Of a stretch of 64,000 nt of DNA, positions 8,359 to 50,335 are shown piece by piece. The position numbers and the translations under genes were made by a program. The stretch is from Candidatus Crickella caballi (GTDB taxonomy: Bacteria; Bacillota; Clostridia; Peptostreptococcales; Anaerovoracaceae): the NCBI GenBank assembly GCA_018064665.1, contig JAGHUV010000002.1, forward strand, positions 16,254 through 80,253, written 5' to 3'. How positions within the stretch are numbered: position 1 is the stretch's first letter; each line of letters starts with the position of its first letter. The notes beneath the pieces were generated by a model. It was not told the origin of the DNA. It saw only the letters and a program-made list of their open reading frames with translations, and did no database searches.

Positions 8359-9168
8359 ATGATAGGAGCAATGATAGGAGATATAGTTGGAAGCAGATTT
8401 GAGTGGAGCAGTTCGAAGAGCAAGGATTTTGAACTGTTTGCGTCCGGAGTGAGATTCACAGACGACACAGCTATGACGGTTGCTGTTGCGGAAGGAATTC
8501 TGCAGTCACTTGATACTGACGACGAGGAATATGTTCGTTCATGCATCAGGGAGCAGATGCGACTGTTTGGAAACAGATATCCCTACGCCGGATACGGCGG
8601 GCACTTCATAGAGTGGCTGGCTGACCCAGAAATGGGCGCATACGGATCCTACGGAAACGGTTCGGCAATGAGAGTCTCAAGTGCCGGCTGGCTGTTTGAT
8701 GATCCTTTTACAACAAGAAGATATGCACGTTTATCTGCCGAAGTAACTCACAATCACCCTGAAGGGCTGAAGGGTGCCGAGTCGGTTGCCATGGCAATTT
8801 TCTGGGCCAGAAAAGGCAAGGACAAAGCCTTCATCAGGGAGTATATAGAGACTGAATTCGGCTACGACCTGTCCGCCACTTGCGATGATATCAGACCGGA
8901 CTATTCATTTGATGTAAGCTGTCAGGGCTCTGTTCCGCAGTCAATCATTGCATTCCTTGAATCAGACTCATTTGAGGACGCTGTCAGAAATGCAATATCA
9001 TTAGGAGGGGATACTGATACTATGGGAGCAATGGCAGGCTCCATAGCAGAGGCATATTACGGAATTCCGGAGGATATTAAGGCAGCTGCATTGGATATTA
9101 TTCCGGAGGATATGCGGGAGGTAGTACGGAAGTTCGAAGCTGTAAAGGCAGAACGGGCAATTAAATAA
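8359..9168 (+). CDS. ADP-ribosylglycohydrolase family protein
   Basis: GAMIGDIVGSRFE, FTDDTAMTVAVAEGIL, GGDTDTMGAMAGSIAEAYYG motifs (DraG fold). Confidence 0.93.
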   Translation: MIGAMIGDIVGSRFEWSSSKSKDFELFASGVRFTDDTAMTVAVAEGILQSLDTDDEEYVRSCIREQMRLFGNRYPYAGYGGHFIEWLADPEMGAYGSYGNGSAMRVSSAGWLFDDPFTTRRYARLSAEVTHNHPEGLKGAESVAMAIFWARKGKDKAFIREYIETEFGYDLSATCDDIRPDYSFDVSCQGSVPQSIIAFLESDSFEDAVRNAISLGGDTDTMGAMAGSIAEAYYGIPEDIKAAALDIIPEDMREVVRKFEAVKAERAIK

Positions 9169-9174
9169 TGCCAA

Positions 9175-9457
9175 TGCCCTCACTTTTGGAACATGAAACC
9201 GTAAAACCGTTGAAAATAAAATGAAAAATTCCAATTGCTTCTTGCATGACCGCACTGAAGGCAGGCTCAAGTGAAGCATTTGAGAACCAAATTGGAATTA
9301 GAAACGCGCAAACCCTTGATATTACAAAATTTAATTCCAAAACAGCATTGCTGCTCATGACGATGATCCGAGACAGACTTGCTTTAGGTGCGGGAAATTG
9401 GAATTATTGGGCTAAAAATCAAGGCTTTCAGCGTTTCATGTTCCAAAAGTGAGGGCA
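9175..9457. repeat. 283-bp non-coding element with 25-bp perfect terminal inverted repeats, copy 1 (MITE-like)
   Basis: TGCCCTCACTTTTGGAACATGAAAC at 9175-9199 is the exact reverse complement of 9433-9457; internal blocks are shared with 50053-50335 in opposite orientation. Confidence 0.9.
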
Positions 9458-9519
9458 AAGAGGTCGAAAGAGCGAGTAAGTCGCGAATTAACGCGATGAA
9501 AATAGGGATGGCCTCATTC

Positions 9520-9587
9520 TTTCAAGATACTAAGTGCTTCAGGATGACAATTCCTTCAAGATTACAATTGCTTCAAGACTACAATTA
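9520..9587. repeat. Four degenerate 17-bp tandem units (CTTCAAGATTACAATTG-like)
   Basis: Units at 9520, 9537, 9554 and 9571, each 17 bp: TTTCAAGATACTAAGTG / CTTCAGGATGACAATTC / CTTCAAGATTACAATTG / CTTCAAGACTACAATTA. Confidence 0.8.
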
Positions 9588-9603
9588 CTAATAACTAAAA
9601 TAA

Positions 9604-9648
9604 GGCTGTCGCTTCTAAGGTTTATCCCCGGATGCGACAGTCTTTATT
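9604..9648 (-). terminator. Hairpin terminator downstream of the PTS IIC gene
   Basis: GGCTGTCGC (9604-9612) pairs with GCGACAGTC (9634-9642); on the - strand the stem is followed by TTATTTTAG. Confidence 0.7.
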
Positions 9649-9688
9649 AGACAGCTTTTATTATTATAAGCATTATTATAAGCAAATG

Positions 9689-10783
9689 TTACAGAGTCAG
9701 ATCTCCGTCCTTGACCCATCCCAGTTTGCGACATACTGCATTGATAAGCGGTGCGAGTATTGCAGGAAGCACGAAGCAAATCAGTATAAGTCCGAGCCAG
9801 TCTGTTCCTGTGATTGCACTCTTGGCTCCTGAAGCTATATCTGCAACCCATCCTGAGTAAACTCCGATCTGTCCTACCAGCCCGCAGGTGCCCATTCCGC
9901 TGGATACAGCGGCACCGTTCATCTTCATATGGAAGACACAGGTGGAAATTGGCCCGGTTATTGCAGCGGTAAGTGTAGGAGCGATCCAGATTCGAGGGTT
10001 CTTTACAATGTTACCCATCTGAAGCATTGATGTCCCGATACCCTGGGATACAAGTCCACCCCATTTATTTTCAGGGAATGACATAACGGCAAAGCCGACC
10101 ATCTGAGCGCAGCAGCCTGCGACAGCTGCACCGCCTGCCAGACCTGTAAGTCCGAGTGCTGCACATATTGCAGCAGAGCTGATAGGTAATGTCAGAGCCA
10201 TACCTATAATTACGGAAACGATGATGCCCATCATGAAAGGTCTGAGATCGGTAGCCCACATTACCAGGTCACCAACCTTCATTGCGGCTGCACCGAGTCC
10301 CGGTGCCCACCACGCGGCGAGAGCAACACCGACGCCGATTGTCACGGTCGGTGTAACAAGGAGGTCGATTCTGGTTTCACCTGCGACCATTTTGCCGATC
10401 TCAGCAGCGATAATTGCGATGAAGAGTACGGCAAGAGGTCCGCCTGCACCACCAAGTCCGTTAGCAGCAAAACCTACTGCTGCAAGGGAGAAAAGCACAT
10501 ATGGCGGTGCTTTAAGTGCATGGCCTATGGCAACTGCCATTGCCGGCCCTGTCATTGCAATAGCAAGACCGCCTATTGTGTATTCAACACCGTTAACCGT
10601 GCAGATGGATGAAGTCAGAAAAGCAATATTAAACTGCGTACCTATTGTGTTAATGATGGTTCCGATTAGAAGCGAACAGAAGAGTCCCTGTGCCATAGCT
10701 GAAAGAGCATCAATGCCGTAACGCTTGGCCGATACTTCAATGTTCTTTCTCTCGAGGAAAGACTTAACAGAATCCTTAGTCAT
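9689..10783 (-). CDS. PTS-type sugar transporter subunit IIC (EIIC_2-like) membrane protein
   Basis: Gly/Ala-rich polytopic protein; N-term FLERKNIEVSAKRYGIDALSAMAQGLFCSLLIGTI typical of this family. Confidence 0.8.
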   Translation of the reverse strand: MTKDSVKSFLERKNIEVSAKRYGIDALSAMAQGLFCSLLIGTIINTIGTQFNIAFLTSSICTVNGVEYTIGGLAIAMTGPAMAVAIGHALKAPPYVLFSLAAVGFAANGLGGAGGPLAVLFIAIIAAEIGKMVAGETRIDLLVTPTVTIGVGVALAAWWAPGLGAAAMKVGDLVMWATDLRPFMMGIIVSVIIGMALTLPISSAAICAALGLTGLAGGAAVAGCCAQMVGFAVMSFPENKWGGLVSQGIGTSMLQMGNIVKNPRIWIAPTLTAAITGPISTCVFHMKMNGAAVSSGMGTCGLVGQIGVYSGWVADIASGAKSAITGTDWLGLILICFVLPAILAPLINAVCRKLGWVKDGDLTL

Positions 10784-22434: not shown

Positions 22435-22612
22435 TTGGTAAGGTCATGTTCGTGGTTGAAAGTCCATGCCAGATACGGGCAAAGGGACCCACGTAAGCAG
22501 TGAGCAAGAGGCCGCTGTGATCATGGCGTATCTTAGAAGTAAGTCCTCCGGTAATCCGGGTCAAGGCGAGTGTGGGGGCAAAGACCAGGTCGAGTGACCG
22601 AGCCGATATTTT
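22435..22612 (+). ncRNA. raiA RNA: raiA structured RNA motif candidate
   Basis: About 180-nt GC-rich structured non-coding region (GGTCATGTTCGTGGTTGAAAGTCCATGCCAG...GGTCGAGTGACC) between comF and hpf/raiA, the known genomic position of the raiA motif; boundaries approximate. Confidence 0.75.
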
Positions 22613-50052: not shown

Positions 50053-50335
50053 TGCCCTCACTTTTGGAACATGAATCGCTGGAGGCCTTGATATTGAAAA
50101 CAATAATTCCAATTCTGTTCGACCAAAGCGGTTTCTACTCGCGCGATCACTTTAGGGTGAGATTCGGTTTTGGAATTAAATTCTGTAATATCAAGGGTTT
50201 GCGCGATTTCAATTCCAATTTAGGTCCTTGATATTTCGCATGAACAGGTCTTTAGGAAGCTCTTGCAGGAGACGATTGGAATTTTTAAATTTATTTTCAA
50301 GGGTTTCAGGGTTTCGTGTTCCAAAAGTGAGGGCA
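50053..50335. repeat. 283-bp non-coding element with terminal inverted repeats, copy 2 (inverted relative to copy 1)
   Basis: TGCCCTCACTTTTGGAACATGAA...TTTCGTGTTCCAAAAGTGAGGGCA; same length as and collinear with reverse-complemented 9175-9457. Confidence 0.9.

Follow-up and report, generated by a model that had tools for sequence, protein, structure and literature searches.

What kind of element occupies positions 9175 to 9457 of the 64,000-nucleotide stretch of Candidatus Crickella caballi DNA analysed here (hereafter the window), and what keeps its parts in order? An earlier note described the locus as 283 bp long, with exact 25-bp inverted ends and four short internal A/T motifs (M1 to M4), and all of these features are present. 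A second copy, also announced there, lies at 50053-50335 on the minus strand. The judgement that no convincing protein is encoded stands as well, as no convincing open reading frame and no codon periodicity could be found. With respect to its nature, the locus was thought to be either a MITE or palindromic mobile element, or a repeated structured RNA. The present analysis is based on searches combined with selected stretches of the source genome, a draft assembly of 1.449 Mb in 42 contigs that is 94% complete and is the only genome of its species analysed.

Anatomy of the element

Sequence comparison across the assembly places the element in a family of 22 loci within the same genome, a degree of matching far beyond chance. 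Eighteen of the 22 are complete copies of 271-284 bp. The remaining four consist of one copy cut off by the start of a contig (C22) and three truncated or deleted forms: a left end only on C16, a 177-bp form on C29, and a 41-bp form at C11:69659 in which the outer ends alone are kept. The parts of the element, and the second copy in the window, are as follows.

9175-9457, plus strand: whole element, copy 1, 283 bp
9175-9236, plus strand: left terminal inverted repeat, 62 nt, outer 25 bp perfect, starting TGCCCTCAC
9184-9236, plus strand: R1, first copy of the 53-bp motif, with TTGGAA at 9186
9237-9289, no strand: spacer S1, free in sequence, fixed in length (0 indels in 13 copies)
9290-9342, plus strand: R2, middle copy of the 53-bp motif, including the core of the earlier note
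9343-9395, no strand: spacer S2, free in sequence, nearly fixed in length
9396-9448, minus strand: R3, third copy of the 53-bp motif, inverted
9396-9457, minus strand: right terminal inverted repeat, 62 nt
50053-50335, minus strand: element copy 2, 283 bp, between addA and mnmA, with R motifs at 50064, 50170 and 50276

The organizing principle of the element is three oriented copies of one 53-bp motif. This motif, R, has the form TTGGAA-N37-TTCCAA with the core AAACCCTTGA, and all complete copies fit the layout R(+)-spacer-R(+)-spacer-R(-). Once R3 is reverse-complemented, the three motifs can be aligned over their 53 bp with no gap, one R3 of 54 bp excepted. At the edges, TTGGAA is near-invariant and TTCCAA invariant, and TTGA occurs within the core. 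Throughout the window, TTGGAA-N37-TTCCAA is found six times, each time within one of the two element copies (at 9186, 9292 and 9398, and at 50064, 50170 and 50276). Genome-wide, a sequence model of R gives 59 strong matches, every one inside an element, with three per complete copy.

The inverted repeat arms are 62 nt each, 77% complementary and separated by 159 nt, with perfect pairing over the outer 25 bp. They are conserved among the 18 complete copies, and the terminal TGCCCTCAC lies directly outside the outer copies of R. What had been taken for a 33-nt core belongs to the middle of R2, a further copy of the 53-bp motif from which both ends are built. Similarly, the A/T motifs, formerly read as brackets of hairpins, make better sense as edges of R, a DNA motif present three times in defined orientations. 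The two segments of about 53 nt are spacers, unrelated in sequence to R, that diverge freely in sequence and hardly in length.

Conservation and spacing

Across 13 aligned copies, the mean pairwise identity of R1, R2 and R3 is 93, 85 and 90%, whereas that of S1 and S2 is 42 and 49%, with shuffled spacers at 25%. Between copies the spacers remain homologous and change by gradual drift, some pairs being up to 75-77% identical. In the same alignment, at least 226 substitutions but no indels were counted in S1, and at least 176 substitutions in S2, whose length changes by -1 or -2 alone; one further copy outside the alignment has a change of -1 in S1. As for larger changes of length, S1 is 11 bp shorter in one copy of the family and S2 is 11 bp shorter in a second, and the 177-bp form, with two R motifs, is short of exactly one 106-bp unit (-106 bp). 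These larger changes, three events only, are all close to whole helical turns.

Measured from start to start, TTGGAA is followed by TTCCAA after 43 bp and TTCCAA by the next TTGGAA after 63 bp, and the pitch of R is exactly 106 bp, or approximately 10 helical turns. By arithmetic on these observed spacings at 10.5 bp per turn, 43 bp amount to 4.1 turns and 63 bp to 6.0 turns, placing the six half-sites on about the same face of the helix. GC content is 49% in the spacers, 38% in other intergenic DNA and 30-36% in R. A spacer GC of 49% is unexpected for a supposedly free sequence. One reading of the element, which we consider unlikely, is that of a length-locked array of six phased half-sites that shapes a looped or wrapped DNA complex at convergent gene ends. 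It would be a species-specific architectural module to which a putative protein of the host or of a mobile element binds, and its spacers would be under constraint for length and composition and not for sequence.

RNA, coding and CRISPR-like readings

The long inverted arms would suit a repeated structured RNA or a transcription terminator with two large hairpins, and two single spacers do fold well (L028, z -4.7; L020, z -2.4). However, on average the spacers fold no better than shuffles (mean z -0.14 and -0.55), contrary to the proposal that each segment of about 53 nt could form a hairpin. The RNAalifold consensus fold of the copies has 49 pairs, a covariation term of +0.65 and one pair with one double change, which is essentially no compensatory change. 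All-pairs covariation on the copy alignment gives no signal either, and mutations in the terminal inverted repeats break pairs without compensation. The element has no Rfam match even at E<=1, and no terminator-like site was detected at 9000-9800 of the window. On the lack of covariation, of an average folding signal in the spacers and of an Rfam match, a structured RNA with hairpins was rejected, and we consider the RNA or terminator reading very improbable.

Some copies have an open frame that spans S1-R2-S2, and the order repeat-spacer-repeat-spacer-repeat resembles that of a CRISPR-like array with captured spacers. A coding element was rejected because substitutions show no codon periodicity (764/774/826 in S1) and the small changes in S2 are -1 or -2 rather than multiples of 3. 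In CRISPR arrays the repeats are identical and the captured spacers unrelated; here the spacers are instead homologous between copies and drift gradually. Since searches of plasmid and phage sequences with the element also found no match, spacer capture was rejected too. We give coding and CRISPR-like explanations almost no credence.

Distribution among relatives and other genomes

A search with the R model found the family absent from 46 relatives in the genus. Weak matches of the model in these genomes were set aside: they are single, several are terminator-like TTGAAATTTCAA palindromes, and they are without TTGGAA/TTCCAA edges. A divergence-tolerant R-R pattern found the family absent from 396 other genomes of an order-level sample, in which 12 genomes have single chance-like matches. 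The end sequence was also scanned for in GTDB r220, a collection that may leave out the source genome, and yielded 32 single matches where chance would give about 61; no match was accompanied by a partner end or an R motif. A lack of further copies in this or related genomes would have spoken against the earlier note; this genome supplies them, with 22 loci in all, and no relative has one. As judged from these comparisons of sequence, the family is found in this species alone among the genomes searched.

Three orthologous junctions in relatives are without the element, with flanks too diverged to place the insertion point to the base. In one relative (G011), both the addA/mnmA junction, the site of copy 2, and the transporter/PTS junction, the site of copy 1, are present without it; the latter is also without the ADP-ribosylglycohydrolase gene that precedes copy 1. 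The third junction, between g4978 and lplA, is without the element in 14 relatives, in which lplA is oppositely oriented. Loss from the relatives could explain these absences as an alternative to insertion. At the G011 addA/mnmA junction (L228, about 1335-1490), a different long inverted repeat, GTGAGACGGCAGCCTGCCGG ... CCGGCAGGCTGCCGTCTCAC, is located where the source genome has copy 2.

Ends, possible mobility and transposase searches

Similarity between copies stops within about 5 bp of the ends of the terminal inverted repeats. The outward flanks favour (T/A)(T/A)G(A/G), a bias that may reflect the choice of target or a slight continuation of the ends themselves. The earlier note had suggested testing empty sites for target duplication. 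Empty sites were found at the three junctions above; no target-site duplication of 2-9 bp stands above permutation in the 18 copies (2-bp identity in 4/18 against 3.7 expected, and nothing longer). In old copies, duplications could have been lost over time.

No autonomous element with the same ends was found in the draft assembly, where all end matches either pair within an element or are remnants. Two transposase families, rve and DDE_Tnp_1, were searched for in the source genome. No rve transposase was found, and the single DDE_Tnp_1 gene lies on a 1565-bp contig (L181, genome contig C37) without R motifs, where its 446-aa reading frame runs off the contig end. Upstream of this gene is a hairpin, TGCCTTCCAATCTCATTTGGAGGGCATTG, that faintly resembles the element end. 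Elsewhere, the last ~330 bp of contigs C28 and C29 hold near-identical copies (283 and 177 bp, respectively), and both contigs end 18 bp beyond. Since the two copies share their flanks but differ in the genes upstream, the element is there part of a longer repeat, the continuation of which is absent from the assembly.

Mobility, the other half of the earlier proposal, fares better than the RNA half. Dispersed copies, sharp ends of the terminal inverted repeats, the absence of a convincing open reading frame, intergenic location, element-free orthologous junctions and deleted derivatives all suggest that the element has been mobile. In its terminal inverted repeats, copy number, non-coding sequence and empty sites it works like a MITE, without being a proven one, since neither a target duplication nor a partner was found in the draft genome.

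Probable recombination between copies

The identities of S1 and S2 between copies are weakly correlated (r=0.37), and the best partners differ by spacer; in L011, for example, S1 is like that of L005 and S2 like that of L008. This mosaic pattern suggests that recombination between copies has shuffled the spacers, probably at R2. A related observation concerns lplA (L119:4978-8342, genome contig C5), which has been inverted in place when compared with 14 relatives in the genus; in those, g4978, lplA and a dihydrolipoamide-dehydrogenase-like gene all share one strand. Only one of the inversion breakpoints carries a copy of the element.

These observations, along with the loss of exactly one 106-bp unit in the 177-bp form, could mean that the element is a recombination substrate, in which R is the site where a site-specific recombinase or homologous recombination acts and R-R exchange shuffles, inverts or shortens the element. 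However, ordinary homologous recombination between repeats explains the mosaic, the 177-bp form and lplA, the second lplA breakpoint is without an element, and no recombinase was identified. Moreover, recombination alone leaves the dispersal to 22 non-homologous sites unexplained, and we consider this explanation improbable.

Genomic context

The copies are intergenic, none having been seen inside a confidently called gene. Among the 15 copies with callable neighbours, nine lie between convergent genes, against a background of 16 in 117 junctions (binomial p of about 4e-5 when counted by junctions and 6e-4 when counted by base pairs; the figures are approximate, as the genes were called with a simple codon-usage script). 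In pneumococcus, the same bias of BOX, RUP, SPRITE and IS elements has been taken to mean that mobile, parasitic DNA is tolerated downstream of genes (PMC3049150). Convergent bias alone is thus no argument for a host function.

Convergent placement also bears on the possibility that the element serves the host by offering a series of sites to a topoisomerase or a protein that structures the nucleoid, and is kept at gene 3' ends for supercoiling or insulation between convergent genes as proposed for REP/BIME. Such an array may have spread initially as a mobile element. This role is consistent with the helical phasing, with the fixed length and with an R that is strongly conserved in almost every copy, as well as with the retention of all three R motifs by nearly every complete copy; the higher GC of the spacers than of other intergenic DNA further suggests a constraint on composition. 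Yet parasitic repeats share the convergent bias, terminal inverted repeats with sharp ends are unnecessary for such a role, and the array has no conserved function, being missing from each of the 46 genus relatives searched. We regard a host-serving array as unlikely, though it is the main rival.

Two other features were observed nearby. A terminator-like hairpin family (GGCTGTCGC...GCGACAGCC) adjoins several copies, at about 9604-9650 of the window and in the right flanks of L003, L007 and L010. A raiA RNA (RF03072) is located at 22439-22602 on the plus strand of the window, with a complete model match of 127 bits.

Comparison with known repeats

Prokaryotic MITEs such as Correia, RUP and ERIC resemble the element in being short and non-coding, with terminal inverted repeats, many dispersed intergenic copies and no transposase (PMC10969869). 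Some carry a site bound by a host protein, as is the case for IHF in Correia. The element here differs in that no target duplication or autonomous partner was found. In addition, we know of no MITEs of the Correia, RUP or ERIC type in which the end motif recurs a third time internally, at a fixed pitch of 106 bp.

The BOX element of Streptococcus pneumoniae is likewise modular, with repeated internal modules, restricted to a species and over-represented between convergent genes (PMC3049150). BOX has differing outer modules, a variable number of boxB modules of identical type, a predicted RNA fold, terminal inverted repeats and target duplications (PMC3049150), whereas in the present element inner and outer modules are the same motif, their number is nearly fixed at three and the spacers are unrelated to them. 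Variation in module number of the BOX kind was not seen in the 18 complete copies, all of which have three R of one kind; one 177-bp form has two. BrickBuilt of Porphyromonas gingivalis is also a MITE with repeated internal units, described as a minisatellite inside a MITE (PMC4596501), in contrast to three oriented 53-bp motifs with diverging spacers of fixed length. Finally, REP/BIME sequences share the intergenic location at gene 3' ends and a proposed protein-binding role. REPs are 20-40-bp palindromes (PMC3733652); R is not a unit of this type, being 53 bp long with 6-bp inverted edges and an asymmetric core.

Proposed mechanism and significance

The best reading, and one that we hold to be fairly probable, is a non-autonomous MITE-like element that is mobilised in trans, with R as a putative bound site and the spacers as phased rulers. 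A trans-acting protein, either a transposase or an accessory DNA-binding protein, would most likely bind the three R sites together, and the same protein would pair the two element ends. The R(+)-R(+)-R(-) array would act in cis by presenting six TTGGAA/TTCCAA half-sites on roughly one face of the helix. The intervening spacer DNA would be free in sequence, with its length keeping the R sites in phase. The dispersal, the repeat anatomy, the contrast between conserved R and divergent spacers of fixed length, the convergent bias and the three element-free junctions are direct observations; we infer that a protein binds, that transposition spread the copies, and that the length is fixed because the sites must stay in phase.

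To our knowledge, most bacterial MITEs are known merely as a pair of ends. The copies in this genome form a natural mutagenesis series in which one motif is fixed, the spacers are nearly randomised and the length is locked, and the series may read out the bases and spacings needed by a putative DNA-binding complex. With a transposase as the binder, the ends would be of an unusual architecture that includes a third, internal site; with a host protein as the binder, the element would represent a new class of architectural DNA between genes.
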